A DNA stretch of 64,000 bases from Craspedostauros australis (Eukaryota > Bacillariophyta > Bacillariophyceae > Mastogloiales > Achnanthaceae), in the NCBI GenBank assembly GCA_026770025.1, contig JAMXDE010000078.1:62001-126000 (forward strand), in the 5' to 3' direction. The notes below the pieces were generated by a model, which was given only the letters and a program-made list of their open reading frames with translations, made no database searches and was not told the origin of the DNA. The first letter of the stretch is position 1. Every line of letters begins with the position of its first letter. Positions 4,266-62,216 of the stretch are shown here, in pieces. The position numbers and the translations under genes were made by a program.

Positions 4266-5043
4266 TGTCAGGAATCGGGGGTACGACTTTGCAAAGATAC
4301 CGTGTTCTACCGCAGCTCCCATGAGGACTGACCGGAACCGGAATGGTATTAAGTGCAAAGATACCCATGATTGCCGCAACCCCCAATAGCACCTCCCAGA
4401 CAAAACGCAACCTAGCAATCGACCAGTTGCACTCGGACAGCCCAATGGCCTTACCTGTCTTATGCGACATCCAAGCACCCTCATCCAGTGGCCTACTCGG
4501 CCATGTCCCGATAACGGTCGGGAACGGAGAGATCTATGAGGATGGCAACACACCAGCCCATGAGTGAATCGAGTGAGCGCGACAACCAATATATCTGAAC
4601 AAGTCGACGCGTCCCTGAGGACCTAATGTGAGAAAGCGAAACAGAGGCGATCCCTATTCACCCAAGACCACGATCCAGACGACGATAAGTTCCAAACATC
4701 CAAAGGCAACCATCGAGATGACCGGAAGGAGGAACTGAAATGAAGTGGGACCAGTGAGGTGACAGGAGACCGAAGGAGAGGTACCTACAGGTCTACGAGT
4801 ATGAACTTGACGAATGTAGGTGCTCTCCAATCCTCAGCTAAGCAAGCGATGAACCACGATGAAAGCAAGATGAAGATGCAGACGAAAGGAGCCAAGCTAA
4901 AGGGTGTAACCTCAGGTGGCTACTGCGGATCATGCTTGTTGTGAATTGGAATCGAAAAGAGATGAGCATGTTGTGCTCACAGTTCTAAAACGGTACAGAC
5001 TGATAACAGATTAGTCTACTACTATAACCCCGGATTTCCAACA
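4266..5043 (+). repeat. 5' LTR of A1
   Basis: It is 778 bp, from TGTCAGGAATC to TTTCCAACA. It is identical in length to, and one base different from, the A2 LTR at 19323-20100. A long minus-strand open frame inside it recurs in all A LTR copies and is an LTR property, not a gene. Confidence 0.93.
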
Positions 5044-5056
5044 CGTTTCGAAACGT
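5043..5056 (+). other. Palindromic primer-site region of A1
   Basis: Immediately after the LTR comes ACGTTTCGAAACGT, a perfect 14-bp palindrome (12-bp core 5044-5055). No TGG-starting tRNA primer-binding site is visible in the first 30 bases. The same core occurs in A2 (20101-20112) and in F (41173-41184, minus strand). A further inverted pair, GGATTTC in the LTR end and GAAATCC at about 5064-5070, encloses it. Confidence 0.6.
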
Positions 5057-5124
5057 TACGATTGAAATCCAACGTTTCCATCACCCACCAACACAGCAAC
5101 AAACAACACCACCACCACACCACC

Positions 5125-19322: not shown

Positions 19323-20100
19323 TGTCAGGAATCGGGGGTACGACTTTGCAAAGATACCGTGTTCTACCGCAGCTCCCATGAGGACTGACCGGAACCGGAA
19401 TGGTATTAAGTGCAAAGATACCCATGATTGCCGCAACCCCCAATAGCACCTCCCAGACAAAACGCAACCTAGCAATCGACCAGTTGCACTCGGACAGCCC
19501 AATGGCCTTACCTGTCTTATGCGACATCCAAGCACCCTCATCCAGTGGCCTACTCGGCCATGTCCCGATAACGGTCGGGAACGGAGAGATCTATGAGGAT
19601 GGCAACACACCAGCCCATGAGTGAATCGAGTGAGCGCGACAACCAATATATCTGAACAAGTCGACGCGTCCCTGAGGACCTAATGTGAGAAAGCGAAACA
19701 GAGGCGATCCCTATTCACCCAAGACCACGATCCAGACGACGATAAGTTCCAAACATCCAAAGGCAACCATCGAGATGACCGGAAGGAGGAACTGAAATGA
19801 AGTGGGACCAGTGAGGTGACAGGAGACCGAAGGAGAGGTACCTACAGGTCTACGAGTATGAACTTGACGAATGTAGGTACTCTCCAATCCTCAGCTAAGC
19901 AAGCGATGAACCACGATGAAAGCAAGATGAAGATGCAGACGAAAGGAGCCAAGCTAAAGGGTGTAACCTCAGGTGGCTACTGCGGATCATGCTTGTTGTG
20001 AATTGGAATCGAAAAGAGATGAGCATGTTGTGCTCACAGTTCTAAAACGGTACAGACTGATAACAGATTAGTCTACTACTATAACCCCGGATTTCCAACA
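19323..20100 (+). repeat. 5' LTR of A2
   Basis: It is 778 bp, differing at one base (GTAGGTACTC versus GTAGGTGCTC) from the A1 5' LTR. It is followed at 20101-20112 by the palindrome CGTTTCGAAACG at the primer-site position. Confidence 0.93.
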
Positions 20101-20181
20101 CGTTTCGAAACGTTACGATTGAAATCCAACGTTTCCATCACCCACCAACACAGCAACAAACAACACCACCACCACACCACC

Positions 20182-23003
20182 ATGAGCTCCTATCTCCGCA
20201 AGAACGACCGCGTCGTCATCTTCGACGGCAAGCGTTCCAGCTGGACAGGTTGGAGCATCAAGTTCCTAGCTCGCGCCGCGGGCAGGGGCCTTGAGGACCT
20301 GTATCTCATGGATCTAGACAAGGTGGAGGTGAAGCCAGCTCCCTTCGGCCCCAGCGCCCTCATCTCCGATGTGAAGATCGAGAAGGGTGAGTCTATCGCG
20401 AAGAAGATAGCCTCGATGACTGCTGAGGAGAAGGAGGTATACAAGAATGGGCTGGCTAAGTGCGCGTTTGAAGAACTGACCATGGCGATCAACCATGAAA
20501 CTACGGAAGGCGATGTCGCCTTCATGGCTGTGGTGGGAACCAAGGGCGGGCCCACTGAGAGTGGAGACCCACGCAAGGCGTGGAAGGCCCTTGAACGCAT
20601 CTACGAACAGCGTACTGCGCCTGTCAAGGCAAAGTTGTTGGCTCAACTCAACGGGATGCGGTTGAAGAAAGGTGAACACCCAGACACGTTCCTAACTGAG
20701 ATGGAAGTGCTGCGTAATCGCCTCGGTAGTACTGGCATCAAGATGGATATGCAACAGTACCACATGCTCGTACTCAACGCCCTCGGAAGGGAATACGAGA
20801 CGGACGTGAAGCTCTTGGAGCTCAAGTTCGACGGTATGGAGAATACCATGACCCTCGAAGACATCCGCGAGGCTGTCAGTGCCACCTACGACGGCCGATA
20901 CCTCAAACTCGGCGGCAATAGACGTGAGAACAATAGTAACAAGGAAGAGACTGCATTCGCTGCAGTAGGAGGCTTCAAAGGTCACTGCCGCAACTGTGGT
21001 GCCTACGGCCACAAGAAAGCAGACTGCCGCTCCGCCCCTAAGAAAGGCAACGGCAAGAACAAGAAGAGTGGCCAAGGAGACAACAACAGCAAGCCCAAGT
21101 TCAACGGGGAGTGTAAGTACTGCGGTAAGAAGGGACACAAGATCCTACAGTGCTTCGAGCTGAAAGCAGCCATGAAGGAGGCAGACTCGGCCAATGTGGC
21201 GACTGATGGGATGGAGGGAAACAACGACGTGGCTCTTGTGATGACAGATGAGCTAATTTGTGTCCCCACCTCGGGAAACACGAACGAATTGGAAAATGTG
21301 ACCAACTTGTCTGTGAACGCAGACGAGGGAAAACACGCGACATCGGAAGCAACAATCAATCCGACTCCAACGTAATGGAAGATGTCGCCTTTGCAGCCAT
21401 CGTCGAACAGACTGACACATCTCCCATTGTTTCCTTGAGACCACACAACGTCAACAACAAGATGAGCAACTCCAACCCAGGACAAGAGTCCTACTACAAT
21501 GCAAGCCTCACCAACGAAGGGGCCACCGACACCGAGGACGCCGATGACGACATGGGCGAGGGCAACCAACGCGGCGCAGCCCGCCTCCCCGTCTACAACT
21601 TTGCCCCCGAGCGCTCTTATGTAGACGGCATGATCGAAGAGTCTGCACGACTCCTCACCAACACGGCTTGGTGCCCATTGTGCCTCAAGCGTGGTCTGCT
21701 ATACGCATGGTGTGTGGAATGCGCCGAAGTCCCCTTTTTCATCCAGCTCGCGAACGAGCCACGCGGTGATGTACCAACCAACGACGCGGAACGCGCGGAG
21801 CGACGCGCCTTTCTCGCAAGAGCAGGGTCTCTCCGCTGTGCTGTCCGAGCATCATTGAGCAACGTGCTTACAGCCAATGACGTGCGATCTGAACTCGCCT
21901 TGTTGTGCTATGATGCAGTTGGAACCTACACGGGCGCATACCCTCCACAAGTCGAAGCACGATCGGTGTACTTCCAACTCCACGAGATCGGGATGTTCAA
22001 CGTGATCAGCGTCTGTCGCAATCCGTGCAACATCAACAACAGCCTGGAGTTTCACCACTTCAACCCGTTCCCCCACGACCTGATCTCGCACATGACCCTC
22101 CACGCTACGCATTCCATCCTCTGGATGCATCACGATAGCGACAAAGGGGTCCAAGACTCGAAGCCAGAACTCTCGGTGTTGCCACTCTACATGGAACACG
22201 ACGAGGGCCACGAGGTGGCTCTGATGATCGGGAACGTGAACGACGTCGACGCGAAGAGATCCGCCATCGCACCAGACCACTACGAAAGCAACACCTGGCT
22301 AGGCGATTCAGGCGCATCATGCCATCTCACCAACAGCGACGAAGGAATGACCAACGTCCAAGTCTCCGACCAATCGGTGAAGATCGGAAACGGACGCTTC
22401 CTCAAGGCAACCAAGGTGGGGGACAAGCGCATGACCGTCATGCAGAAGAATGGAAGGACATCCATCGTCGTACTCAAGTCAGTGAAGTACGTGCCGAAGC
22501 TGTGGGTGAACCTGCTGAGCATCAATAAAGCTCTCGAAAATGGGTTCGACATTAGCAACCGCGGTATCGTGATCAGCCTGAAGAAGGGCAGCGTGCGCAT
22601 CAGCTTCGACCGCATCATGGCGACCCAGAGCGGCTTCGTTTGCGGAGTGAACATGGTGAGCAATGCCAAGGCCGACGACCAAGCTCATGTTGGTGTGTCA
22701 ACCGACGCACCAGTCGACATCAACACAATTCATAAAATGTTAGGCCACGTTGACGCGTACACCATCTCTCGAACAGCAGGGAGGTACGGCTGGAACGTGA
22801 CAGGAAAACTGAACGTGTGTGTTGACTGCGCGATTGGGAAATCGCGTCAGAGATCGATGTCGAAAGCGACTCAACAACGAGCGAAAGAGGTCGGGGATCG
22901 ATTGTTCATGGACACATCAAGTGTTCAGACACACAGCCTGGGAAGGGGCAAATACTGGCTTCTTGTGATCGACGATTACAGTGACTACTGCTGGAGTTAC
23001 TTC
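20182..23003 (+). pseudogene. A2 gag, cassette, protease and first part of integrase
   Basis: ATG at 20182 (MSSYLRKND) as in A1. Gag and both CCHC knuckles are intact. A one-base deletion near 21328 (GAGGGAAAAC where A1 has GAGGCGAAAAC) shifts the frame, so gag ends at 21373-21375 and the rest continues in another frame from about 21330. The cassette with WCPLCLKRG is only ~70% like A1 in protein, while flanking parts are nearly identical. Protease GDSGASCH and the pre-integrase zinc site are present. Integrase is cut after the first catalytic Asp region (SDYCWSY) by the LTR of element E at 23004. Confidence 0.9.
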
Positions 23004-23279
23004 TGTTGATGCAACAGCGGTGTGCACGGTTCCCTACTCAGCTCTGAGCTGAAGGGTGGAGCCAGAGCATGCACTGTGCGAGTTCACGTGTGGTTGTTTC
23101 GTCGGATACTGTTTGTTTGATTTTATGGGGTTGTTTTCTTGCTTCTTGCTGTTGCCGTGCTTCGTGCTTCGTCGTGCTGTGCTCCGCGGCTGCGTATCTT
23201 TGCCTCTGCCCGGTCATTTGGGTCATTGTTGTGCTCTTCTGCTCTGCCACGTGGACCTTGGCCACCACAAACACCAACA
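23004..23279 (-). repeat. 3' LTR of element E (plus-strand left copy)
   Basis: It is 276 bp and contains the end of the pol frame: U3, in element sense from 23279 down to about 23123, is coding. The segment AATCAAACAAACAGTA (minus strand, 23107-23122) follows the stop codon directly. Confidence 0.93.
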
Positions 23280-26200
23280 CACTCCTGTGATGTCAACAGG
23301 GCTTCCTTGTATGTCTTGGCCTTGTTGGCAGCAGTCGGCCTGAGGTTGAGTATTGCGTTCCGGAATTCCCGGAATTTCGATCCCTGCAGAGGCTTCGTGA
23401 AGAAATCACCAATCATGTCATCGGTGGGACAATATTGGACTGTCACCTCCTTGTTTTGGATTCTGTCGTGCACAAAGAAGTATCGAATGTTGATGTGCCG
23501 AGTGCGCTTGCCACTGGATCGCCGCCCATTGTTCTCCAGCAACATCGCGCTTTGGTTGTCTTGATGTATGGTTGATGGTTTGGCTGCGACGCCTTGCTCT
23601 TGAAGGAAGTAGCGAACCCACAGCACCTGGGGCATCACATCATCCACAGCCACAAGCTCAGCTTCCGTGGAGCTCTTTGTGTTGAGCTTCTGTTTTGCCG
23701 ATGTGGCGTAGATGGCTCCTGCTCCTGTCGACATGTGTGCGCCCGTGTGGCTGCGCATGTCGTTGTGGACGCCAAAGGCACCGTCCACCCACCATTGTAC
23801 GTCACTGAGACAGGACCCACCAAGTGTGAGAGTGAGGTGTCGGGTTGCGCGGAGGTACTTGATTGTACGTGCCAATTTCTTGTAATCATCCTCATCAGGG
23901 CTCTTCACGCGGGTGCAAAGGAATGAGATGGCGGTTTGAATGTCGGGACGTGCGCGCTTGCACAGGAAAAGGAGCTTGGCCACGATGTGATGGAACATCT
24001 CCTTGGTGTCGTCATCCAGAAGAGTGGGATCGTTGTTGTTGACTTCGAATAGGTGGTTGGCAGCTGGTGTGACGGCATGGCCATCCATGTTGGCAGGCAC
24101 TCCTGCAAGAATGCCGTCGATGTATTCTTTCATATCGATTCTCACCTCACCAGGCTCAGAGTAGTCAAGTGTCATGCCCAGATATTCGTGTTGCTTTCCT
24201 CTGTGAACGGTGAGTGGAGTGCGCTTCCCGTAGGCATCATTGAGCATGGTGATCACGTCACTCACAGCCGATGACTTGATGTGGGAAATTTTCAAGTCGT
24301 CCACATGCCACACGACAGTGCATTGACTGCCATCGATGTGCTTGTTGGCGACACACCAGTCGTATGGGTTGATGGTGAATCCGTCAGCAACCAGTGTCGC
24401 CGTCAAGTCTTTCCACCATTGTAGCGCCGCCTTCAGTGTGCCATATAGTGCCTTTGTAAGCTTCACGTAGATAGCCGACTGTCCACGTTTCTTGTGCACA
24501 TATTCTGCGTACACATCAGGAGCCACCTTTGCCAATAGTTCCGCCATCCGTCCTTCGATGAGCACATGAACCACATCGCCCTTGTCGAATGTGGTCTGCA
24601 GGAACGCTCCTGGCACGTCAACGGTCGCAACGTCACGTCCTTCATGTGCATCAATCACGCATGAGAGCATCAGTCCGAGCAGTGAGACTGTAGGCGAGCT
24701 GGTTTCCTCCTTGGTGAGGTATAGGCGCTGCTTCCGTCCGTCAGCACACCCGCGTCCCTTGATGATACCGTTCCGCTTTTCCTTCAGGTACATGAGGTAC
24801 CGCAGGGACTTGGCTCTTTCGTCGCGAGTCAGCTGATGCCAATGTTTTGGTTCGAAACCATCCATCTCGTGTACCTGCTCCAGTTCCTTGCTGATTGCGT
24901 CTTCACCGCGTTCCTGAAACAGCTTGAGTCCGCGCTTCCAGTTCATCTGTTCTGTCACAAAAACGCATTCGTTGTGTTGCTCGATGTTTTCCTCAGTGGG
25001 CTCATTAGAGAGCACCGTGACTGTGGCGTGCGTGTCACCGCGCCCTGTGCTGTGTAGTTGGCGGTAGTCAATTCGTGGCCCTCTGCGCGTGGTCATGTGA
25101 TGCGTGGACGTCGTTGCAGGGGCTGGCTGGATGTTTGGTTGTTCCTCTTGTGCATCCTCTTGTGGGTCATCGAAGACATCTGGTTCGTTGTCTTGGCCGG
25201 CGATTGGTTGGATGTCATAGATTGGGCCATCTGGGTCCTCATTGATGTCTCCATCGTTGTTGTCGTCATCGCTGTCAATGGAGTCCTCATCGGATTCATC
25301 GTTGCTTGTGTCGTTGGAGTCATCATCGTCATCGTCTTCATCACTGGATTCGTCATCGTCGTCACTGAAGTCGTCATCATCATCATCATCGTCGTCGTGG
25401 CTGTCGCTGGCATCGGATTGATCATCATTGTCATCATCGCTGTCATCATCATCAGCAATGGGATACAACTCGAGACCTCGCTGAGTGGCAAAGTTCAGTT
25501 GTTTGTTTGCTTTGGCTGCCTTCGCCATTGCGTGGACACGATCGATGACTGTTTGTGTCATGGGCAGCTCTGTCCATGATCGTCTATGGATTCGCATACC
25601 GGTCTCGAGGCTGAAGAATACGTGCCCGCCCTGAACATTGCCGGATGGTCGGAGTGTGATGGCTCCGACTGTTCTTGGTCGCATGGTGTTATCATGTTGT
25701 TCATGAGTGTGCACATAGCTGCCGAACTCAATCCGACAATGTGTGTTGTAGTCGATCTTTCGCCCGACCACTATCTCAGACGGACTCATCCGCTTGCTCA
25801 CTCCATTGGGATGTGGGAACATATTGAGCCAGAAGACTGAGTGGTTGACCATCTCGATGATGAGCATTGGTGGGTAGTGCTTGAATGGTAGGCTGTGATA
25901 TGTCGATCTGGTTTTCTCCTTGATGGTACGAATGTAGCGCTCGACTTCAGGCACATGCTCGTCCCTGGACGTAACGTTGATACTGACTCCATGTTCCGCC
26001 AGGTCGCCACGAAGGGATTCGAACTGGTTATCAACCATGATGATGGTGACGCGGAACCCACGTTGCTTGTAGAGTTGTATCAATTTGTTGAATTGCGTGT
26101 TGAGGTGTTTGTTGCTCGCCGAGTCCAGTTTCGTGACCGTTCCAAACTTGATGTGTTTCGCAACAGACACAAGGAACTTGATGCCATTGACGACCATGAT

Positions 26201-28075
26201 GTCAACCGACAGCTGCACGTCTCGGTACTGTTGCATGATGTTTGCTGGTAGCTGTGCAATCTGTGCACGAACAGCTGGCGACACCTGTCTGACAGTCCTC
26301 CCTTTCAAGGATGCCACATCTGGACCAAAGATGAGGTCAGCAGTGCGGATATCCTTGGTGGTGATGGGACAGTTGGGGATGAGGCCATTGTGCACATATC
26401 GAATGAAGTTGCGCGAGGTGGGACGACCTATACGTTGTTGAATGGACCTGGCCAGCTTGGCCTGCGAGTAATCGAATGACGAGAAGCTATTTCTGTTATC
26501 GTCTACAGTGCTAATCATTGTCACTCCCGTGATGCGGCCGGTGTCAAGGTAGAACAGTCCTCCTGCCGACTCGCGGAATGACTGTGTTGACCCATCCTCT
26601 TTGTGTACAGTGAAACTGTTGGCGCCAGTGCTGTCATATGTGACCCGGAAGCGACCCTTCACCTTGCTTAGTGAGAGGATGTTGGCAACGCCTGTGGGGT
26701 GATACCAGACATCGCCGTATCCAGGGAGGGTGCCGCGCTGGTTGGTGGTGGCGGTGCCGGCGTTGCAGTGGATGGTGAGTGCGTTGTTGGTTGTGTGGAT
26801 GTCCTTGAGCAGCTGATGGTTGCTGAAGACATCCACGGTTGACTGGTTGTCGAGTAGGATCCACGAACGTGGGATGATGCCAGTGTCTTGATTGTGTGTA
26901 TGTGCAGCACTCCCGGACATGTGAGCATGGAGGAACACGAAGTCGTTGTTGTCGCATTCCTCTGTGCTGTGTACCAGTACAGTGCCATTGCTGTGGTACT
27001 TCGCGTGGCATTGCTCATCAGTGTGGTTGGAGCGCCCACAGCGTGTGCATGTCGCCTTGGTTGTATCGGCATTCACGAAGGCCATCCCGGTATCCTTTGG
27101 AGTGTGGATGCCGGGGACGTTACGTGGATCCTTCGACCAATGGCTGAGCATGGTGAGTGCTGCAACCATGGTTGTTGGGTAACGGTCTGACCCCTTGATG
27201 TGGTCGTTGCGTAGCTCCTCGATGAGAGAACCAAAACGGTGGCGGTCTGCTCCGAGGATGAATTGCACCGCCAGGAACCGCTGCTTGGCAGCAGCTGCGA
27301 TGATCTTCTTCTGTGCTGCGCTTGGACTGGTGATCGATCTGTCCTTGGTGACTGCTTCGATGATGCAGCCCACTTCGGAGATGGAGGTCTTGATTGAGTC
27401 GTTGACTTCGGAGAGGTTCAGGAAAGACTCGTAGTACTCCTGCACTGGCTGTCGTCGCTTTTGGCGAAGCCCCATGAGTTCTTGCATGATCATGCATGCT
27501 GCAACTGTGCCCTGCTCGTGCGTTTGGTAATTGAATACCACGCTCTTGATGATCTTGAGGAGGCCAGCAGTGTTGCGGCTGGTGGATGTGGATGTGTAGT
27601 CATCGGATTCTTGGATCCTGGTGCGCATGATATCGGAGCATTGGCCCCAGACTAGCGAATACACCTTCTGGTAATCGGTCTCAGCGTTGAGCAGGCGTGT
27701 TGTGTAGAGGGCGTATTGCCGCTTCCATTTGTCCTTTTGAATGTCTGTCGCATTGGCAGGATAGTCGTCTGGTTCATTGATGGTTGGTTCGGTGAGGTTC
27801 TCCACCGCCATGCTGATGAGTGGTCCGTATTGTGTCCCCACGTATGTGGTGATGGCTTCGATGGTCTTGCTGTACTCATCGACTTGTCTTGATCGGACGG
27901 CAGCACAATCAAAGACGTGTCCCTTCAGGTCTGCGCACGCGCCTTCGAACTTGGCGGGCTTTGCGAACGGGGTGTACGGCTTGTTGCGTTGTTTGCCTTT
28001 GTTGTTGTTGTTGTTGTTGCTGCCACCTTCTGCCTTCGGCTTTGCCGGGTTGGGTGGCTTGACGTCGCTGCTCAT
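23123..28075 (-). CDS. Gag-Pol polyprotein of copia element E, intact
   Basis: Start at ATG 28075 (MSSDVKPPN); 1650 residues. Gag ends with one CCHC knuckle (CTRCGRSNHTDEQC, from residue 343). The protease motif is LLDNQST (Asp409), a variant of the usual DSGA. Integrase acidic residues are near D625, D682 and E712 (VERYI). A long Asp/Glu/Ser run (plus 25190-25470) joins integrase to RT. RT has HVDD in place of YVDD (near residue 1258). RNase H shows VDGAFG, SSTEAELV, DNQSA and GDFFTKP. The last ~50 codons lie inside the 3' LTR, with the TAA (23123-23125) directly before a segment complementary to the primer site. Lineage looks closest to GalEa/CoDi6-like copia, low confidence. Confidence 0.93.
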   Translation of the reverse strand: MSSDVKPPNPAKPKAEGGSNNNNNNKGKQRNKPYTPFAKPAKFEGACADLKGHVFDCAAVRSRQVDEYSKTIEAITTYVGTQYGPLISMAVENLTEPTINEPDDYPANATDIQKDKWKRQYALYTTRLLNAETDYQKVYSLVWGQCSDIMRTRIQESDDYTSTSTSRNTAGLLKIIKSVVFNYQTHEQGTVAACMIMQELMGLRQKRRQPVQEYYESFLNLSEVNDSIKTSISEVGCIIEAVTKDRSITSPSAAQKKIIAAAAKQRFLAVQFILGADRHRFGSLIEELRNDHIKGSDRYPTTMVAALTMLSHWSKDPRNVPGIHTPKDTGMAFVNADTTKATCTRCGRSNHTDEQCHAKYHSNGTVLVHSTEECDNNDFVFLHAHMSGSAAHTHNQDTGIIPRSWILLDNQSTVDVFSNHQLLKDIHTTNNALTIHCNAGTATTNQRGTLPGYGDVWYHPTGVANILSLSKVKGRFRVTYDSTGANSFTVHKEDGSTQSFRESAGGLFYLDTGRITGVTMISTVDDNRNSFSSFDYSQAKLARSIQQRIGRPTSRNFIRYVHNGLIPNCPITTKDIRTADLIFGPDVASLKGRTVRQVSPAVRAQIAQLPANIMQQYRDVQLSVDIMVVNGIKFLVSVAKHIKFGTVTKLDSASNKHLNTQFNKLIQLYKQRGFRVTIIMVDNQFESLRGDLAEHGVSINVTSRDEHVPEVERYIRTIKEKTRSTYHSLPFKHYPPMLIIEMVNHSVFWLNMFPHPNGVSKRMSPSEIVVGRKIDYNTHCRIEFGSYVHTHEQHDNTMRPRTVGAITLRPSGNVQGGHVFFSLETGMRIHRRSWTELPMTQTVIDRVHAMAKAAKANKQLNFATQRGLELYPIADDDDSDDDNDDQSDASDSHDDDDDDDDDFSDDDDESSDEDDDDDDSNDTSNDESDEDSIDSDDDNNDGDINEDPDGPIYDIQPIAGQDNEPDVFDDPQEDAQEEQPNIQPAPATTSTHHMTTRRGPRIDYRQLHSTGRGDTHATVTVLSNEPTEENIEQHNECVFVTEQMNWKRGLKLFQERGEDAISKELEQVHEMDGFEPKHWHQLTRDERAKSLRYLMYLKEKRNGIIKGRGCADGRKQRLYLTKEETSSPTVSLLGLMLSCVIDAHEGRDVATVDVPGAFLQTTFDKGDVVHVLIEGRMAELLAKVAPDVYAEYVHKKRGQSAIYVKLTKALYGTLKAALQWWKDLTATLVADGFTINPYDWCVANKHIDGSQCTVVWHVDDLKISHIKSSAVSDVITMLNDAYGKRTPLTVHRGKQHEYLGMTLDYSEPGEVRIDMKEYIDGILAGVPANMDGHAVTPAANHLFEVNNNDPTLLDDDTKEMFHHIVAKLLFLCKRARPDIQTAISFLCTRVKSPDEDDYKKLARTIKYLRATRHLTLTLGGSCLSDVQWWVDGAFGVHNDMRSHTGAHMSTGAGAIYATSAKQKLNTKSSTEAELVAVDDVMPQVLWVRYFLQEQGVAAKPSTIHQDNQSAMLLENNGRRSSGKRTRHINIRYFFVHDRIQNKEVTVQYCPTDDMIGDFFTKPLQGSKFREFRNAILNLRPTAANKAKTYKEALLTSQECVGVCGGQGPRGRAEEHNNDPNDRAEAKIRSRGAQHDEARSTATARSKKTTP

Positions 28076-28093: not shown

Positions 28094-28228
28094 AATCAAA
28101 CAAACAGTATGTTGATGCAACAGCGGTGTGCACGGTTCCCTACTCAGCTCTGAGCTGAAGGGTGGAGCCAGAGCATGCACTGTGCGAGTTCACGTGTGGT
28201 TGTTTCGTCGGATACTGTTTGTTTGATT
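28094..28228 (-). other. Self-complementary primer site of element E
   Basis: In element sense the 16 bases directly after the 5' LTR (28109 down to 28094) read TACTGTTTGTTTGATT. They are perfectly complementary to AATCAAACAAACAGTA inside the 5' LTR (28228 down to 28213), 103 nt upstream. No TGG-type tRNA primer site is seen. The boundary at 28109/28110 is exact because the other LTR copy is fixed by its target duplication. This would let the RNA 5' region pair with its own primer site. Confidence 0.75.
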
Positions 28229-28385
28229 TTATGGGGTTGTTTTCTTGCTTCTTGCTGTTGCCGTGCTTCGTGCTTCGTCGTGCTGTGCTCCGCGGCTGCG
28301 TATCTTTGCCTCTGCCCGGTCATTTGGGTCATTGTTGTGCTCTTCTGCTCTGCCACGTGGACCTTGGCCACCACAAACACCAACA
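28110..28385 (-). repeat. 5' LTR of element E (plus-strand right copy)
   Basis: It is 276 bp and appears identical to 23004-23279. It is followed on the plus strand by the ACTTC duplication and then A2 integrase sequence. Confidence 0.93.
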
Positions 28386-28390
28386 ACTTC

Positions 28391-34071: not shown

Positions 34072-34076
34072 TCCTC

Positions 34077-34375
34077 TGCTGATACGATGGTGTGCAATGA
34101 TCAATGTTGTGAATTAGTATTTATGAGGAGCTGCATTGGTTGTTGCAGGTGTTTCGTCTCCTCCTGATCCACCGCGGTGATCGCGGTGATGTGCGGCCTT
34201 GCGGCGTCTTTCTACTCGGATCCACGGATTGTGTTCCTTGTCCTGGCCTGTTCCTGCTGTTCCTTCACCTTCGGCGAGGCTCGCCGAAGGCCGGGTTTGG
34301 AATGTGACGTGGTCCGGGTCAGGAAGCGTTTGGATGGTTGCACTTTGTCGTGACTGACTGGGGACTGGATTGGCA
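34077..34375 (-). repeat. 3' LTR of H
   Basis: It is 299 bp. Pol continues through most of it and stops at 34114-34116. The segment ATACTAATTCACAAC (34120 down to 34106) overlaps the stop codon. Confidence 0.93.
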
Positions 34376-37300
34376 CACCCTCGCGGAACACCTTGCATGC
34401 TTCGTAGTGCATTTTTGGCGCTGTCGGCGGTAGGTTTAAGATAGACGCCCCTCATGAGTCGATGATGAGAGGTGGGGTGATGCTTGGTGAAGTAGTCAGC
34501 TAAGTTCTGGCCGCCCGGCGCCCAGTAGACGACAAACTGTCCTTGTTGGATGCGGTCGCGGACCCAGTAGAAGCGCATGTCCATTGCTCGAGTGCGACGT
34601 TGCTTCATGGTGCCGTTGACGACGCCAGTGGCAGTGGAGTTGTCGGTCTTGACCGGGGTGGGTGGTTGGGGATGGCCCATCTCGTTGAGCACAGTGCGGA
34701 TGGCTGCTGCCTCGGTGCAGTTGTAGTACAGGGCACCGACTTCTGCCTCCGCTGCGGATGCCATGACGTGCGTCATGCGGTTGCACACGGTGAGGACAGC
34801 GCCGTTGTTGGGGACCGGCCGGCCTGGTGCAGCTCTCGGGTTGGTGGAGGGCTCGCCCATGTAGAGATGGCCTCCTGCGCGGCTTCGGGCCTTGGGTAGG
34901 CTCATGTAGGACGCGTCGCTGTCGACATGTAGCACCATGGAACTGCTGTGATACACGATGGTGGCGTTGGGATGTGTTGCTGCATAGTCCAGGAGCCGGT
35001 TCACCGCACGCTGCGTGTTCTCGGTCGCGTGGGCTTGCTGGGTAGCGATGTCGTGGATCGCTGGCAGCATGGTGGGATCGACTGCTCTCGCGTAGTACAA
35101 GAACGTGCCAACCACCTGTCGCATGCGCTCGATGTCCTCGGGCGGGAGTTTCGCAGACTTGTCTTCCGGTGTGGGTGCCTGTGAGGAGGAGCCGTACATC
35201 GGAGTGGCGCAATGAGCTGGCGAGTGCTGCGGTTTGTCGGGAGGCGGGTGCTGGAACTTGTGGAGCGCCTTCGCGACGTAGTTGGGCATGGACAGCTCGA
35301 CAGTGCGAGCCAAGTAGTCCCACTTGAGGCGGATCCCACAGTAGAGATCTCCGGACCACTCTATGGTGATCTTGTAGATGGATTCCAAGGCTTTGATGAG
35401 ATGCCGAGCATGTTCCTCACCGACGTATTTCACGCCGAAGTCGTCAACGACGAGCGTGAAGGAGATGGGTCGTTGGTCGTGGACCCAAAGTCCTGGGGTG
35501 TGTTGAACTGGACGATACCCGTACTTTGCCAAGTGCTTGGTGAGCTTCTGATTTGCGATGCGGCCTGCTTGTGGCAGCCCATACATTCCCTTTTGAATCT
35601 CCACGTACACTTGGCCGTTGTCAGCTTTCGCCGCGAGTTGGTACTGTTGGACGATCTCATCGGGCATGAGGGAGAGGGGCATGCGCATGTACTCGAACCG
35701 CTCCATCTCTGTGTTCAAGTAGAAATCTTTGATGTCGATGGTCATGTACTTGGCATACGGCGTGGAGACGACACTGTTGAGATGGCACTTAACTGCTGTG
35801 AGTTCGGCGGTTGGTGTGTGCACCTCAAAAGGGTATTCGACGAGATTTCCGCCGACGGTCAGTCGTGTGCGATGGGTCTCGGCCTTCTGAGGGCGCACAG
35901 CGCAGACGATGCGCCCGTAGGTGGGCTTGCGGTCGTTCGGCATTTGTTGGCGCTTGATGAAACGGATGGTGTTGGTGGCTCGTTCCGCGGTGACGCGAGT
36001 TCCCACCCCTTGCGCAAGACGTCCGATCTCGTTGGCAAAGGACTTCTTCCACACGTCGGGGTCATGGCCGTGCACCTTCCCGGAGACGAGATGCCGGTAC
36101 TCGTAAGACTTGCCAGTGGCCTCGTCGATGACAGCGTTGGCCTGTGCTGGGTTGCCCCATCGTCGCCGCTCGATCGCTCCAGTCGCCAGGCGCGTGCTGC
36201 GTCCTGGTGGGACAGCAATGTCAGGTTCAGTTGGCGCAGGCATAGCTCCGGTGGCAGGGCTGCGGGGTTCGTCGGGGACAAGGTTGCCGGCTGGCGCGTC
36301 GGGTGCAGTGGCCGCCAGTGGGGCCGTAGGCACCCTCGGAAGTTGGCGCCTGCTGGTGGTTTCGATTTCGCCGGGCTCGTATGGCACCCTCGGAGGTAGG
36401 CGTGTCGGGGGCGGTACCGGCGTCGTGGGAGGCGCTGGTGTGTCGGCAATTGGCACGGGCATGGTCGTCGGGCCGATGACTGGGGCCGCCGGTTGCGGTG
36501 GTGCGCGGGGCACGTTGCCTCGCAGTGGGGCAGCACGTGAGAAGATGGCAGATAGCTGACGGATGGCATCAAGCTGTGCGTCGCCGATCTGCGTTTGGGT
36601 GGCCTGTGGCTGCTGGAGTGCGCTGGCTAGGTCAGAGGCGGCGGCGATGGCCGCTTCTGCCGTGGACAGGAAAGGCAGAGTGCAGTGTGCTGGTTGCAGT
36701 TCAACGGTGTCGGTGATGCGGACACCTCGTGTCTTCGGGTTGTACACTTTGTAACACCGGTAATGCTCCAGAGCGGGCTCGACGTACCAGCAGGAGACGG
36801 CATGGGGTGCCCACGTCGCTCGCGCCTGTGGCTTGATGTGGACGATGGCCTTGGTGCCAGGCGGCGCCATAGGCGTGGCATCAAAGTTGTAGGAGCCGTA
36901 AATGATTTGGTATGCAGAGACATGCGGGTTGACACGCGAGGCGCGCATCATGTTGAGCGTCATATCGCACTGTGGCAAGAGTCGGCACCACAGGGTTAAT
37001 GGAAAAGCGGCATCTGCCGTGGCGAGACCTGCGATGAAATGGTCTTTCCACGTGGAGATGGCCCGCTCAGCCGCGTTGCGTCGATGGATACCTGGAGGCA
37101 CCAGCTGGTAGTCAAGGCCCTTGGACTGGATGAGCGTCCTGAGAGCAGACGGTGCTTCGTTGTCGAGTTTGTGAAGCTTCGGTCGCAGGCCGCGGGCAAT
37201 GAGGAGATCGAGGAGCTCTCCGCAAGCGGTGGTGAGTTCTTTGGACGATCGGTTGCGCATGGGCCTGGATAGGATGGCGTTGCTGTCGTAGTCGTACAAC

Positions 37301-38112
37301 ACCATGATGTATCGGAACCCTCGACTGGACTGCACCGGGAACGCTCCGGTCTGGTCGGTGTATACCTTGCCAGTGGGCTCGAACACGGATGTGAAGATAT
37401 CATGTGTGCGTTCCGTGGTGCCGACGGGCTCGGCAGCGGCCTGCATTGCTCGTCCTTTGGTGGAGCGTGAGTTCTGGTACTGTTGGCGCATGTGGCCGTG
37501 CAATGTGGCAGCGGACGGTGGGAGGTGCTGGCGCACCAATCCTTCCGTCAATCCAGGCCAAGTTGCAAAGAATCCCTTCTGTATTGCCACGGCCCACGTC
37601 GAAACGTTGGGGCTGAAGCAGCACTGATGGTAATACTTGATGAGGTCTGACTTGGATCGAAGGATGGAGGCGCGGTTGGCTTGACCCAGCGGTGGTTCGA
37701 TGCCGACGCAGTACATTCCAGTGGCAGGATCATTGTGGCCGGAGAGCACTACTCGGTTGTCGTGGATGACGCGGACGGCGCTGGCGTCAAATTCCACCTT
37801 TGCACCGGCCGCACAGATCTGTCGGACAGATAGAAGTGGGCGGCCGGCCAGATCGGGGAGAATTCGTGCCGTGCGGGCGCTGTCGGGGAGCGATGGTAGA
37901 TGGATTTGGGCTACCTGTGTGGACGCGATGGTTTCGCCGTTGGGGAGGCGGACGCGCATCGGGTCAGGATCTGGCCGTGCATGTTGGCACGGGTCTTGCG
38001 GACGAAGAAAGTGGTGCGAGCAGCCTGAATCAATGATGGCTAGGGCAGACGTCGATGGAAAGGTGCGTACTAAAGTATTAGCCTGTCCAGTGGTTGGCGC
38101 CTGCCGTGGCGG
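34114..38112 (-). CDS. Pol region of copia element H
   Basis: The frame runs 1332 codons from just after the UGA at 38113-38115. The first ATG is 37959, but the protease motif AIIDSGCSHHF (Asp codon 38029-38031) lies upstream of it, so translation most likely comes from gag by readthrough. Order: protease; pre-integrase zinc region with HLPPS context; integrase TDQTG, LDNEAP and RRNAAERAI acidic residues; Pro/Ala-rich linker (about 36650-36200); RT with MTIDIKDFYLN and FTLVVDDFG (VVDD in place of YVDD); RNase H VDSDASY, ASAAEAEVGAL, DNSTA and NLADYFTKHH. The tail of ~85 residues is encoded by the LTR. The domain set is complete, so H may be autonomous. Confidence 0.9.
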   Translation of the reverse strand, partial: PPRQAPTTGQANTLVRTFPSTSALAIIDSGCSHHFLRPQDPCQHARPDPDPMRVRLPNGETIASTQVAQIHLPSLPDSARTARILPDLAGRPLLSVRQICAAGAKVEFDASAVRVIHDNRVVLSGHNDPATGMYCVGIEPPLGQANRASILRSKSDLIKYYHQCCFSPNVSTWAVAIQKGFFATWPGLTEGLVRQHLPPSAATLHGHMRQQYQNSRSTKGRAMQAAAEPVGTTERTHDIFTSVFEPTGKVYTDQTGAFPVQSSRGFRYIMVLYDYDSNAILSRPMRNRSSKELTTACGELLDLLIARGLRPKLHKLDNEAPSALRTLIQSKGLDYQLVPPGIHRRNAAERAISTWKDHFIAGLATADAAFPLTLWCRLLPQCDMTLNMMRASRVNPHVSAYQIIYGSYNFDATPMAPPGTKAIVHIKPQARATWAPHAVSCWYVEPALEHYRCYKVYNPKTRGVRITDTVELQPAHCTLPFLSTAEAAIAAASDLASALQQPQATQTQIGDAQLDAIRQLSAIFSRAAPLRGNVPRAPPQPAAPVIGPTTMPVPIADTPAPPTTPVPPPTRLPPRVPYEPGEIETTSRRQLPRVPTAPLAATAPDAPAGNLVPDEPRSPATGAMPAPTEPDIAVPPGRSTRLATGAIERRRWGNPAQANAVIDEATGKSYEYRHLVSGKVHGHDPDVWKKSFANEIGRLAQGVGTRVTAERATNTIRFIKRQQMPNDRKPTYGRIVCAVRPQKAETHRTRLTVGGNLVEYPFEVHTPTAELTAVKCHLNSVVSTPYAKYMTIDIKDFYLNTEMERFEYMRMPLSLMPDEIVQQYQLAAKADNGQVYVEIQKGMYGLPQAGRIANQKLTKHLAKYGYRPVQHTPGLWVHDQRPISFTLVVDDFGVKYVGEEHARHLIKALESIYKITIEWSGDLYCGIRLKWDYLARTVELSMPNYVAKALHKFQHPPPDKPQHSPAHCATPMYGSSSQAPTPEDKSAKLPPEDIERMRQVVGTFLYYARAVDPTMLPAIHDIATQQAHATENTQRAVNRLLDYAATHPNATIVYHSSSMVLHVDSDASYMSLPKARSRAGGHLYMGEPSTNPRAAPGRPVPNNGAVLTVCNRMTHVMASAAEAEVGALYYNCTEAAAIRTVLNEMGHPQPPTPVKTDNSTATGVVNGTMKQRRTRAMDMRFYWVRDRIQQGQFVVYWAPGGQNLADYFTKHHPTSHHRLMRGVYLKPTADSAKNALRSMQGVPRGCANPVPSQSRQSATIQTLPDPDHVTFQTRPSASLAEGEGTAGTGQDKEHNPWIRVERRRKAAHHRDHRGGSGGDETPATTNAAPHKY

Positions 38113-39273
38113 TCAGGCCGTCGCGCCCTTGGCGGATCCTCCCAAGGTGTTGGCGGCAGTGGCCTCCTTCTGATGGCCGTGGGCAGGGTTACGGCACGTG
38201 GCGCTGTTGTGGCCGGTCGCGACGCGATGCCCATGGGTCCAGCAATACTCGCCGTTGGTCTGGCGTGCGGAGCGGACTTGCTTGGCGCTCTTCGCTTCTG
38301 CCTGCAGGCGTGCGATGGCGGCATTGGCTTCAGCGAGCTGCGCTGTCAGTGCTGCGTTGGTGCTAGTGAGGAGGGCCACCGCGTTACGGTCGGCGGCTGT
38401 GGCCTGCGCGAGGTTGGCAAGGGCTTCGGCCGTCATGCTGTCGTCGGGAGGTGGCTCCTCGCCTTGAGCATGGTTGGCTTGGAATCCCTGCTGCCCGGTG
38501 GTGACTCGGGAGTTCACCATCTCCTGGTACGCATCGGCAAAGAAGGTCTTGAACTCGGACCAGGTCTTCTGGGCTTGCGGGCGCATACGCCACTCACGGC
38601 AGGTTTCGACGAACTGGTTGGTGTCAAAGATGAGGGCATATGCGCGGGAGACGACCTGTGCGGAGGTGTAGGGTACTCCTGCTGCGTTGGCAACTTCCAT
38701 GGCATCCTCCACTTGGTCCACGAGGACCTCGAATGGTTGTTCAGTGTTGAATGGTGTGCGGAAACGGGTGTCGTTGGCCTCCATGTCGATTGGAGTGAGC
38801 TTCCCATAGGTGTCGTACAAGTGCGTCAGGATGTCGAAGGTGGATACGTTGGTGTATCCCACCACACGGTGACGGAGAGTCCTGTAGAACATCTCGCCGA
38901 AACACGCAAGGACCTGCTGCTTGAGGGCCTGTTCCATGACGAGCATCTCTCTCCAGAGCTCGGTGGCTTCTTCGTGTTCTTTCTGATGTTGTCGGATCTG
39001 GGCCTGTGTGCCATTGGGCATGGCGACGTAGGGACCAGGGTTCGCGGGCATGGCGAAGTCGATGTCTCCGGAGAGTGCGTTGTACTCTGCATTGGAGACA
39101 GTGAGAGCAAGCCATCCCAGGCTGCCATTGCCGAGGGGGCAGTGGACAGACGCTGCGTTGGCGTTGAGCTGGAGGTGGACAGCGGCGATATCCTCGTATT
39201 GAGGCGTACCGTGAACCACGGGAATCGTTGGGTGTGGGAACCCGTCGGTGTATCGCTCAAGAGATCGGACCAT
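38113..39273 (-). CDS. Gag of copia element H
   Basis: ATG 39273, only 48 bp after the 5' LTR; 386 residues; ends at UGA 38113-38115. It contains a helical UBN2-like gag core (LYDTYGKLT, FKTFFADAYQEM), a coiled-coil-like Ala/Gln stretch (LAEANAAIARLQAEAK), and a zinc-finger variant in YCWTHGHRVATGHNSATC (Cys-His-His-Cys order) near the C-terminus. Pol is in the same frame directly after the stop, so the UGA separates structural protein from enzymes. Confidence 0.88.
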   Translation of the reverse strand: MVRSLERYTDGFPHPTIPVVHGTPQYEDIAAVHLQLNANAASVHCPLGNGSLGWLALTVSNAEYNALSGDIDFAMPANPGPYVAMPNGTQAQIRQHQKEHEEATELWREMLVMEQALKQQVLACFGEMFYRTLRHRVVGYTNVSTFDILTHLYDTYGKLTPIDMEANDTRFRTPFNTEQPFEVLVDQVEDAMEVANAAGVPYTSAQVVSRAYALIFDTNQFVETCREWRMRPQAQKTWSEFKTFFADAYQEMVNSRVTTGQQGFQANHAQGEEPPPDDSMTAEALANLAQATAADRNAVALLTSTNAALTAQLAEANAAIARLQAEAKSAKQVRSARQTNGEYCWTHGHRVATGHNSATCRNPAHGHQKEATAANTLGGSAKGATA

Positions 39274-39306
39274 GGTGGACGATGGTGTGGCTCTCGAGAG
39301 CGTGCG

Positions 39307-39365
39307 ATACTAATTCACAACTGCTGATACGATGGTGTGCAATGATCAATGTTGTGAATTAGTAT
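39307..39365 (-). other. Self-complementary primer site of element H
   Basis: In element sense the 15 bases directly after the 5' LTR (39321 down to 39307) read GTTGTGAATTAGTAT. They are perfectly complementary to ATACTAATTCACAAC in the LTR (39365 down to 39351), separated by 29 nt. The arm abuts the LTR boundary exactly, and no TGG-type tRNA primer site follows the LTR. Confidence 0.75.
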
Positions 39366-39620
39366 TTATGAGGAGCTGCATTGGTTGTTGCAGGTGTTTC
39401 GTCTCCTCCTGATCCACCGCGGTGATCGCGGTGATGTGCGGCCTTGCGGCGTCTTTCTACTCGGATCCACGGATTGTGTTCCTTGTCCTGGCCTGTTCCT
39501 GCTGTTCCTTCACCTTCGGCGAGGCTCGCCGAAGGCCGGGTTTGGAATGTGACGTGGTCCGGGTCAGGAAGCGTTTGGATGGTTGCACTTTGTCGTGACT
39601 GACTGGGGACTGGATTGGCA
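39322..39620 (-). repeat. 5' LTR of H
   Basis: It is 299 bp, identical by eye to 34077-34375. F gag sequence resumes after the TCCTC duplication. Confidence 0.93.
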
Positions 39621-39625
39621 TCCTC

Positions 39626-41184
39626 CTCGTTGTCGTGAGTGCGGCCGCCTTTCTCTTTATTCTTGGATGGAGAGAGTTCTCGGTTGATCAACTCTTCGTG
39701 GTCGATCGTAGATCCGTAGTAGCCATGCACTCCCGAAGTGTACTCGGCTGTCTCCTCCCTGATCCACTCGTAGTCGTTGAATGGTGTTCCGCTGTCAAAG
39801 TCGGAGACATCATCATTGTCAGTTGTCACGAGTATCCATCGTGTAGTTTCCCGTGGTCACATTATTGTTTTGTTGTTCGCGATTTCGGTGATGACCACGA
39901 ATTTCGCGCTGGTCACATTTTTGATGTCGACCGCGTTTTTGTTGTTCGCAGTTTCGGTGGTGACCACAAATTTCGTGTTGGTCACATTTTTGATGTCGGC
40001 CACATTTTCGTTGATGGCCGCGCACATCAACTCGTCAATGATGAGAGCGATGTCATCCATCCCGTCAATCGCGACGTTGGTCGACTCAGCCTCCTGCATC
40101 GCGGCCTTTGTTTGTCATCGCGGTTGCTCTCACTCTTGGCATCACCGCTATTCTTGCTTTTGCCTTTCATTGGCAAGCGTTGATCCGTCATCTCACTGTC
40201 GTGGGCATCACGGTGAGGACAGTTGGTCCCAAACCGATCGATCCGTAGTCAGCGTTTTCTCACTCTCACTGTTGTTGCCTCGTGCGCGCTTATAACCGAT
40301 TTTGATACGGTGGCGGTCGTAGATGAGGCTCATGCTTTGCGGATTTCTTGAGTCGTCGTTTTCTCCGACGGCGAGGATACCTCCTGTTCCTCGACTTTCG
40401 TCTCGAGCGTGGGATCGAAGCGCGGTCGGACCTCCCGTCCACCTTGTTGCAGCACTGTCCCTTCTCATCGAAGCACACACTTCCTGTGTTGCTATTTTTA
40501 TTGTTGTCGCCAATTCATGGCTGGTAGGTTACATCCTTATCTCCGCGATCATATCGCAGCAGTATTCGCAGCCAGCACTCGAACCTGTATCACACGATGG
40601 CCAACAGCGCCATGTGATCATCTCGGTGCTTCCATTGCTGCTCCTCGATTGCATCTCGTTGAGCTCCTTCAGCTATCTCGCCTTCATGGCGCAGTCTGCT
40701 GAGTCTGATGCGTCCGAGAGTGTGGCCAGCTGCGTTCGAATCTCTTCTTGCGAGCAGCTTGCTCTCGTGCTCCAACCTAGCCGTGAAGGTCTCCGTGCCT
40801 TCCTCGACTTCATGGTCCCATGACCATGGACAGTTCTTCCAATGCGTGTGTCGAGCGCCTCCTTGCTTCCAGTAGTACATGCAGTGCTTGCGCTTACCTC
40901 AGCTGCGGTCTCCACTCTGCTGGTGGACTCGCGGGGGCGCTCGATTCGATCATCATCATCATCTCGACGTCGTCGTCGCTCGTGTGGGGGTTGCCGTGCC
41001 GTTCTTGGCGTCCATTGGCAAGGAGCACCGTGCTCCAGAGCGTCCTGCTCTCCTTTCTCTCGACACAGGGGACCATTACTTGCGATAGTCTTCGGTGTGG
41101 TTGATGGTCATGTCGACGATGGTGATGTTGGCTAGTGTTGGTGGTGATGGAAACGTTGGATTTCAATCATAACGTTTCGAAACG
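39626..41184 (-). pseudogene. F gag remnant and leader
   Basis: Minus-strand pieces align loosely with the A1 leader and gag: the leader begins with the palindrome CGTTTCGAAACG (41173-41184) and MKSNVSIT-like codons as in A1, followed by broken gag and linker segments (for example 40099-39857 and 39829-39626). Stops and frame changes are frequent. Two short repeats of NVTNTKFVVTTE type show internal duplication at about 40010-39870. Confidence 0.7.
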
Positions 41185-41892
41185 TGTTGGAAATCCGGGG
41201 TAACCCAGCCTTATTAGTTATATCTGATTACCTATTCCTGTTGTTGCATTCTCAGAACTGTGAGCACAACATCTTCAGCTCTTCCAATTCCATTTGCCAT
41301 AGCATGTATAATCCACAGTAACATCATGTCATACTGTTGCCTTCATGCTGTCTTCATCATGCATTCTCGCTTGTATTCATCGATCCTTTCATCAGGCATC
41401 TCCATCATGCATCTCATCATGCATATCATCATCTACATTCATGCGGTACGATTCCGCAGTCATGCGCTTGACTTGTCACAGGTTTCGCCCTTGATCTCTT
41501 GACACCTTTTCTTACGATTGGTGTCAAGCTTGATGTCCTTTCTGAATTGTTCTAGTCCGCGAGTGGCACGTGTTTCGGTTCTCTTGATGGGGTGATCACA
41601 GACCTGCTGGTCATCGATGTTTCTCCTGTGACGTCGTTGTTTGGATTGTCGCGATGTCATGTTTGATGTTGGGACACCCTGTTTTTGCGTCGTCATGGTT
41701 TTTCTTGTTAGAGGAGGACAGGCTTGTTTTCTTGTCAAGACTGAGATCAGTCACGTTTGTCTTGAGTCACGGTTGTGATCAACAAGACTCAAAGGTGTGA
41801 TCAACAGGAGTTGATTTCAGTCGTGATTGATAATTTTGGGAGGTGCGGCAATCATGGGTATCTTGACAAAGTCGTACCCTCGATTCCTAACA
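41185..41892 (-). repeat. 5' LTR of F
   Basis: It is 708 bp, about two substitutions from 29440-30147 (GGGACACCCTG versus GGGACATCCTG, and ACCCTCG versus ACCCCCG). Confidence 0.92.
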
Positions 41893-42745: not shown

Positions 42746-43284
42746 TGCCTTATGCCGGCGGACGATTGATGTTCATACAATTGCTAATGATAATGAATGT
42801 TGTTGTTGATGATGTAAGATCAAAATTATGATTACTTGAGCTATCTCTCTCCCTTCTGCAGTCTGCACCTCTTGTCAATCGTATTCATGCATTTCGAGAT
42901 CATGTTGTTTGTGCCTTATCCCAAACCTGCGCCACTCTCTGTTAGACTTCTCGTTTTGGATGGAGGTCAGGGTTTGGATGGCGATATTCCTTTTCATATG
43001 CAAATATTTTTACGATTGAATCTTGACCAATCATTCTTCCAACTGGAGCTTTGACTAATCAGACTTCTAGTTGGAACCTTGACTCATCCGACTTCAGTTT
43101 GAGTCTTGACTAATCTGATTTCAATTTTGATTCACGATTCGTCAGTCTTGATTGACTGTTAACACGACTCGTAGGTGTGACTGGCAATGTGATTGCTTGG
43201 GTGACTTATTGATGACTAGTATCTATTGTGCACAAGTCTAGGTCTTGTGTCACCAATAGTCTATCTAGCCAGCCGTCTAGGGCA
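42746..43284 (-). repeat. 3' LTR of G
   Basis: It is 539 bp; GGGAAGCGAG precedes it in element sense as a weak polypurine tract. Confidence 0.92.
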
Positions 43285-47472: not shown

Positions 47473-47484
47473 AGTGATATCACT
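47473..47484 (-). other. Palindromic primer-site region of G
   Basis: One base after the 5' LTR in element sense lies AGTGATATCACT, a perfect 12-bp palindrome. No TGG-type tRNA primer site is evident. Confidence 0.55.
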
Positions 47485-47485
47485 G

Positions 47486-48024
47486 TGCCTTATGCCGGCG
47501 GACGATTGATGTTCATACAATTGCTAATGATAATGAATGTTGTTGTTGATGATGTAAGATCAAAATTATGATTACTTGAGCTATCTCTCTCCCTTCTGCA
47601 GTCTGCACCTCTTGTCAATCGTATTCATGCATTTCGAGATCATGTTGTTTGTGCCTTATCCCAAACCTGCGCCACTCTCTGTTAGACTTCTCGTTTTGGA
47701 TGGAGGTCAGGGTTTGGATGGCGATATTCCTTTTCATATGCAAATATTTTTACGATTGAATCTTGACCAATCATTCTTCCAACTGGAGCTTTGACTAATC
47801 AGACTTCTAGTTGGAACCTTGACTCATCCGACTTCAGTTTGAGTCTTGACTAATCTGATTTCAATTTTGATTCACGATTCGTCAGTCTTGATTGACTGTT
47901 AACACGACTCGTAGGTGTGACTGGCAATGTGATTGCTTGGGTGACTTATTGATGACTAGTATCTATTGTGCACAAGTCTAGGTCTTGTGTCACCAATAGT
48001 CTATCTAGCCAGCCGTCTAGGGCA
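47486..48024 (-). repeat. 5' LTR of G
   Basis: It is 539 bp and identical by eye to 42746-43284. It is followed on the plus strand by GAATC and B gag. Confidence 0.92.
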
Positions 48025-62215: not shown

Positions 62216-62216
62216 A
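62201..62216 (-). other. tRNA-type primer-binding site of D
   Basis: In element sense the LTR end runs into TGGTAGCTGCGAGTGG, with T being the last LTR base. A tRNA ending CGCAGCTACCA would pair with it; the GCTACCA end is typical of eukaryotic initiator Met tRNA. The assignment to that tRNA is inference. Confidence 0.6.

Follow-up and report, generated by a model that had tools for sequence, protein, structure and literature searches.

Element E occupies the minus strand of the window, by which we mean the whole 64,000-nt stretch of Craspedostauros australis DNA that was analysed (contig JAMXDE010000078.1, positions 62,001 to 126,000). It has two 276-bp LTRs, identical to each other, and is flanked by a 5-bp target site duplication (Table 1). 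The element that hosts E is another copia, in which E sits, by our reading, inside the integrase region; the uninterrupted target site is present near position 7943, in a sister of that host element. E carries a single gag-pol ORF, which encodes a CCHC knuckle and whose 3' part extends through U3 of the 3' LTR.

Table 1. Positions of repeats, coding regions and putative priming sites of LTR elements in the window
Feature	Positions	Strand	Basis
E, 5' LTR, 276 bp	28110..28385	(-)	LTR comparison
E, 3' LTR, 276 bp, same sequence as 5' LTR	23004..23279	(-)	LTR comparison
E, target site duplication ACTTC, left (5 bp)	22999..23003	.	flanks of element E
E, target site duplication ACTTC, right (5 bp)	28386..28390	.	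flanks of element E
E, putative primer binding site (PBS), TACTGTTTGTTTGATT, adjoins 5' LTR	28094..28109	(-)	complementarity to LTR
E, putative self-primer segment in 5' LTR, AATCAAACAAACAGTA, perfect complement of PBS	28213..28228	(-)	complementarity
E, copy of self-primer segment in 3' LTR, right after pol stop TAA 23123-23125	23107..23122	(-)	sequence
E, predicted U5 stem-loop (tip 28144-28158), conserved and covarying between families	28130..28178 (limits approximate)	(-)	alignment fold
E, single gag-pol ORF, 1650 aa, ATG 28075 to TAA 23123	23123..28075	(-)	translation
E, integrase region, ahead of RT (copia order)	25496..26458	(-)	AlphaFold2 model and Foldseek
E, reverse transcriptase RVT_2 (PF07727), residues 1083-1324 of 1650	24104..24829	(-)	Pfam, E = 2.6e-11
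D9, 5' LTR, 299 bp, TG..CA	39322..39620	(-)	LTR pair
D9, 3' LTR; pol stop TAA 34114-34116 within segment 34106-34120	34077..34375	(-)	LTR pair, ORF
D9, putative PBS, GTTGTGAATTAGTAT	39307..39321	(-)	complementarity to own LTR
D9, putative self-primer segment in 5' LTR, ATACTAATTCACAAC	39351..39365	(-)	complementarity
D9, target site duplication GAGGA	39621-39625 and 34072-34076		
D8, LTRs, identical	42746-43284 and 47486-48024		
D2, LTRs, ends AGTTG..CAACT; 2394-aa copia ORF	53721-54473 and 62216-62968		

The reverse transcriptase (RT) of E is of the RVT_2 type, as in all 16 members of the alignment that includes it (alignment A2). The integrase region gave no match to any Pfam or PDB sequence profile. 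Residues 540-860 were modelled with AlphaFold2 (pLDDT 82.7) and the model was compared by Foldseek with the solved structures of the PDB: retroviral integrases rank first, with TM-scores by query that are modest, at 0.34-0.40 among the 50 matches listed. These matches point to an order in which integrase precedes RT, as in Ty1/copia. By its pol, with an RVT_2-type RT, a modelled integrase ahead of it and none after RNase H, E can be assigned to Ty1/copia.

According to the preliminary description of this DNA, the 16 nt that follow the 5' LTR are perfectly complementary to a stretch of the LTR itself, and the 3' LTR copy of these 16 nt abuts the pol stop codon without a gap. Both statements are exact: read on the minus strand, 28109-28094 is the reverse complement of 28228-28213 over 16 nt, and in the 3' LTR, 23122-23107 comes directly after TAA 23125-23123. 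With one more pair, between the last LTR base and the base that follows the segment, E reaches 17 bp. The abutment of stop and segment was considered as a part of the mechanism and dropped: in sister families of E the pol stop may fall inside the segment or 2 nt beyond it, and exact abutment is peculiar to some families.

In 20,000 dinucleotide-preserving shuffles of E's LTR, the longest complement was 12 nt, attained once (1/20,000), against the 16 nt observed. When both strands of the window were scanned, at 127,320 positions in all, complementarity of at least 13 nt turned up at two places only: the PBS of E, and 39307-39365 in a second copia element, D9. Four other LTR elements that were tested (A, D7, D8 and D2) have no LTR complement of 7 nt or more at the PBS.

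Relatives of E were sought throughout the genome (74.8 Mb in 90 contigs, among which we take C83 and C89, with nad6 and cox3, to be one circular mitochondrial genome cut at different points, and C90, with psbV- and dnaB-like genes that mark the host as an alga with a red-lineage plastid, to be plastid). E's segment, with one mismatch at most, occurs 26 times, against none for the reversed control; 23 of these occurrences lie in LTR or PBS copies of the E clade and three lie elsewhere. Searches that permitted two mismatches (27, 32, 44 and 45 matches, against 10, 45, 9 and 23 for the reversed controls) also yield chance matches, and for this reason we counted only opposite-strand pairs at fixed spacing. 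The genome contains 19 E-clade elements that have both segment and site, spaced 114-119 nt apart, and in 18 of them complementarity is perfect over 15-18 nt, even though the letters differ. Six types can be distinguished: E (five elements, 16 nt, spacing 119), C4 (five elements, 16 nt, spacing 114), C1b/C51 (three elements, 15 nt, spacing 115), C30 (three elements, 18 nt), C1a (two elements, 16 nt), and a C53 variant (one element, 15 nt) with an inner one-letter difference from C1b that has been made on both sides. The sole imperfect pair of the 19, C29:148059/147945, belongs to the C4 type and has one mismatch on each side.

When the six types are set beside L123, a relative from another assembly that is described below, pair positions 1-12 are Watson-Crick in seven of seven, and ten of those twelve positions are occupied by at least two pair types. 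Pairing begins at the first base past the LTR in every type for which the LTR end was seen (E, C1a, C4, C1b and C30, as well as D9). Near-full-length RT matches of at least 72% identity number 16, E included, and 15 of them are accompanied by a segment-PBS pair; for the other, C20, a 5' LTR was looked for and not found. In C29 the pair (207472/207587) lies 11 kb upstream of the RT, which we take for a nested insertion. Ten E-clade elements were fetched, and in eight the LTR pair was defined by alignment; in C51 the alignment ran past the LTR end and the PBS was located by pattern, as was the 5' part of C29.

Among 24 LTR matches to E, the segment is unchanged in 14 and has one to three differences in 10; five are followed by a PBS, perfectly paired in each case, and the remaining 19 are 3' or solo LTRs without a PBS. 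The idea that LTR similarity is restricted to the stretch after the segment was dropped, as only 12 of the 24 matches begin at position 120 or later. The preliminary description had proposed looking for compensatory changes across copies, and had named the loss of pairing in most intact copies as a result that would speak against it. The outcome is strongly positive: letters change on both sides and pairing is kept, in all but one of the 19 E-clade elements that have both parts. Judged from these sequences, neither chance nor shared ancestry accounts for the complementarity in the E clade.

The second element, D9 (34077-39620), is a copia with an RVT_2 RT, only 22% identical to E. Its complementarity covers 15 nt, with the parts 44 nt apart. 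Ten relatives of D9 were fetched (RT identity 69-72%): nine have a different 14-nt pair at 43-45 nt, and the tenth, C50, has one mismatch in its pair. Five of the first fourteen positions differ between D9 and its relatives, each of them changed on both sides. Genome-wide there are 17 pairs of the D9 clade, 15 perfect and two with one mismatch (C6:557995 and C50); the underlying pattern search gave 72 single matches, against 10 for the reversed control, and 3' copies were read from pattern matches. Four window elements were placed in a small tree together with three homologues, and A and D2 part from the rest with a support of 99; having no outgroup, the tree is silent on a single origin of self-priming.

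In the D9-type element C50 (259857, 264883 and 264926), both LTR segments share a change, TATTTGCG, which the PBS does not have. Its sequence is possibly a snapshot of primer-site rewriting: the pattern agrees with LTR segments that come from the 3' copy and a PBS that comes from the 5' copy, and it also agrees with a simple lag.

Inverted repeats arise readily, and the match in E might be put down to chance or to an inverted duplication at this insertion alone. Such an origin has a negligible probability in view of the shuffles, the window scan, and the 18 and 15 perfect pairs, with different letters, that the genome holds in the two clades; the compensatory families already refute it.

A more conventional possibility is that a tRNA, a half-tRNA or some other host RNA primes E and that the LTR match is secondary; this would be the usual copia mechanism, as set out in the portion of PMC8515867 available to us. 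Our tRNA set was drawn from 1610 candidates, of which 63 were scored and 50 loci fetched; ARAGORN identified 41 distinct tRNAs in these, a part of the host set. They were compared with the PBS of E, D9, D2, D8, A and L123. The preliminary description had suggested searching for a tRNA complementary to the primer site: none of the 41 in this partial set matches the PBS of E, for which the best anchored complement is 6 nt, and none has an internal stretch complementary to it, of the hemivirus or half-tRNA type. For C1a, C1b and C30 the best anchored complement in the same partial set is 4 nt. The PBS of C4 has an anchored 7-nt complement, and in that of C30, 11 nt match an internal stretch of an organellar tRNA-Gly, away from the primer end. 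These last two were rejected as primers and taken as chance.

The usual copia mechanism, the 7-nt and 11-nt matches and the partial nature of the tRNA set speak for a host-RNA primer. Against it, no PBS in either clade starts with TGG, the anchored complements in E, C1a, C1b and C30 are as short as those just given, and a single host RNA could not fit six PBS types. Moreover, the near-matches of E's segment fall overwhelmingly in the clade's own LTR and PBS copies, and no tRNA gene was found in the 3 kb surrounding each of the three that lie off the elements. We consider priming by a host RNA very improbable.

Folding predicts the pairing of segment with PBS in each leader analysed: the mean pairing probability is 0.956-0.965 in 13 of 13 leaders, some of which are identical. 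The U5 between segment and PBS is predicted to form a stem-loop (Table 1). In an alignment of 11 of 14 leaders (three identical ones were dropped), the folding energy is -10.6; 100 column shuffles averaged -0.48 (sd 0.76, minimum -3.62). The significance is somewhat overstated, because column shuffling keeps composition and not relatedness. Within this hairpin alignment 144 of 164 cells are paired; several pairs are swapped on both sides, and some rows break a few of the pairs. When nine leaders were folded singly, the folds contained the segment:PBS helix, a structured U5 and, past the PBS, a hairpin. Two further duplexes of the Tf1 'pretzel', which join the PBS flanks with the LTR, are absent from these nine folds. 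In nine of nine E-clade leaders folded, the PBS is followed by a second small hairpin, whose 3' arm contains the gag start codon.

We propose that E, a Ty1/copia retrotransposon, in all likelihood takes the primer for reverse transcription from its own RNA, in the manner of Tf1. Transcription would start at 28228 or up to a few nt before it, such that the segment forms the 5' end of the RNA and can fold back onto the PBS. RNase H would cleave after 28213, a position set by the LTR end, and thereby expose a 3' OH on the base that pairs with the first base of the PBS; RT would extend this primer into U5, and the minus-strand strong-stop DNA would be transferred to the 3' R. Plus-strand DNA that copies the primer would then give the daughter a PBS rewritten after the LTR segment, in which case the joint drift of segment and PBS would be explained. 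Tf1-like self-priming in a copia-type element was the central suggestion of the preliminary description, and it draws support from the compensatory change, from the pairs kept in 18 of 19 elements and from the lack of a tRNA match in the partial set. We regard self-priming as a well-supported and very probable feature of E, with a mechanism that we infer from sequence.

The placement of the RNA start turns in part on a TATA-like CATAA(A), which most families of both clades have immediately before the segment, independently of the reading frame, and which C1b/C51 and L123 lack. It may be an initiator, which agrees with self-priming, or a TATA box, which does not: transcription would then start downstream of the segment, and this counts against self-priming. 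With a TATA box directly before it, the segment would be present only at the 3' end of the RNA; its pairing with the PBS might then serve another purpose (RNA end joining via the 3' copy, dimerisation or packaging), and another RNA would prime. Ty1 uses long-range 5'-3' pairing, which counts in favour of such a role. Several observations make it improbable, however. Wherever the LTR end of a type was seen, the pairing begins where a primer would; the PBS tracks the LTR and none of the tRNAs compared; and each clade keeps an almost constant spacing (114-119 or 43-45). Furthermore, if transcription began about 30 nt past CATAAA, the D9 clade would have an R+U5 of only about 15-20 nt, and C1b/C51 has no CATAA at all. 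For the initiator reading of CATAA we do not lean on a paper on oomycete initiators, which reports that a diatom appeared to lack INR+FPR and FPR (PMC3599244).

A variant of self-priming, which overlaps the mechanism that we prefer, would have the RNA start well upstream, with a primer that is excised from a longer 5' tail or still bears it. Exactness is needed only at the 3' end of the primer, and the far end of the complementarity does vary, from 15 to 18 nt. Yet complementarity ends at or just after CATAA in most families, and in those E-clade families that were read the ORF terminates no more than a few nt from the segment, which is what a U3 ending at that point would predict. We think an upstream start unlikely, though not far-fetched.

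Other LTR elements of the window have different sequences at the corresponding place. Three elements (A, the copia that hosts E, and D7) have after the LTR a 14-nt palindrome, ACGTTTCGAAACGT, that includes the last A of the LTR (5043-5079, 20100-20136 and 41148-41185); the palindrome is followed in turn by its own partial reverse complement, AACGTTTC, an arrangement like the Conserved Hairpin Site of GalEa. The sequence CAACACGTTTCGAAACG occurs 255 times in the genome (113 + 142, with one mismatch at most), against none for the reversed control. D8, read on the minus strand, has a palindrome just after its LTR, AGTGATATCACT (47473-47485); its 281-aa ORF has no Pfam match. In D2 the LTR is followed by GGTAGCTGCGAG (62200-62215), a site with no LTR complement of 7 nt and no match longer than 5 nt to the 41 tRNAs.

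Outside this genome, the RT of E has at least 2881 relatives in a public protein collection (8000 candidates scored), with identities of 54-63% among the 120 relatives listed. A search of viral contigs found no relatives of E. Genome contigs of other assemblies supplied two, L123 and L124, the latter being left out as a partial match without repeats. L123 (JAJTHV010000262.1) is a contig of 5336 bp with a protein 55% identical to that of E; the stretch from the pol end to the gag start contains AATTTCTGATAA and, at a spacing of 114 nt, the complementary TTATCAGAAATT, a match of 12 nt. It contains one LTR-like stretch only, and its LTR ends rest on no LTR pair. L123 is filed in a bacterial assembly, a Flammeovirgaceae MAG, in which a copia contig is probably eukaryotic contamination.

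The Pseudoviridae profile, in the part available to us, describes the replication of copia as primed by tRNA (PMC8515867); here, two clades in one algal genome and a relative from another assembly keep self-complementarity instead. Compensatory change across clades is stronger comparative evidence than a single element could give, and the families with differing letters, along with C50, amount to natural experiments on whether a self-primer rewrites the primer site in each generation. A broader proposition can be offered, about which we are more doubtful than confident: the copia elements of this algal lineage may largely have left tRNA priming. The deep E and D9 clades, 22% identical, would prime themselves from the LTR, the 14-nt palindrome of the abundant clade A could prime from a partner RNA, and each cycle would rewrite the PBS of all three from the RNA of the element itself. 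If this is true then, given the number of relatives of E's RT, it could be a main priming mode of planktonic copia elements.

The family profile, in its accessible text, has reverse transcription in Pseudoviridae primed by a host tRNA (PMC8515867), a trait from which E differs in that its PBS matches its LTR, with a best anchored complement of 6 nt among the 41 tRNAs of the partial set. Diatoms also have the CoDi copia elements, and a named diatom protein, P0155 of Fistulifera solaris, is 51% identical over E's integrase region. In the part of the CoDi paper available to us (PMC2806351), tRNA, priming and 'primer binding' were not found, and PBS occurs once. Nor do the available parts of PMC6934838 and PMC2864245 name a self-priming copia element, and in the literature searched, which includes few subscription papers and some sources only in part, we found no description of one outside green plants. 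Within green plants the situation is different. The preliminary description knew of no copia case, a view that does not hold: a 2019 survey, as far as its available text goes, predicts self-priming for plant copia of the TAR lineage, and it refers to previous suggestions of the kind for Houba and Osr-1 (PMC6317226). These elements and E are alike as copia with predicted self-priming; TAR belongs to green plants, and we compare it with E by description alone (PMC6317226).

The fungal GalEa copia elements, with their Conserved Hairpin Site, resemble E in being copia without a tRNA-type PBS. From the part of PMC5445492 available, the GalEa site is a palindrome with no counterpart in the LTR, whereas the site of E is not palindromic and has such a counterpart; the window elements A and D7 resemble the GalEa type and are in this respect unlike E. 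In mechanism E would correspond to Tf1, a Ty3/gypsy element in which self-priming was first shown and whose 'pretzel' is a three-duplex fold (PMC10085805; self-priming is also described in PMC7175516 and PMC4600332, each source seen in part). The Tf1/sushi elements (Tf1, Tf2 and Tj1) and E are alike in that the PBS complements an LTR segment, and primer and PBS enclose a structured U5 (same sources). The former are Ty3/gypsy chromoviruses, whereas E, with RVT_2 and integrase before RT, is Ty1/copia. The Tf1 primer consists of the first 11 nt of its RNA; that of the E clade would have 15-18 nt, if the 5' end of the RNA lies where we place it. E is not the first copia case. What is new is another host group, the presence of two such copia clades in one genome, and strong compensatory change.
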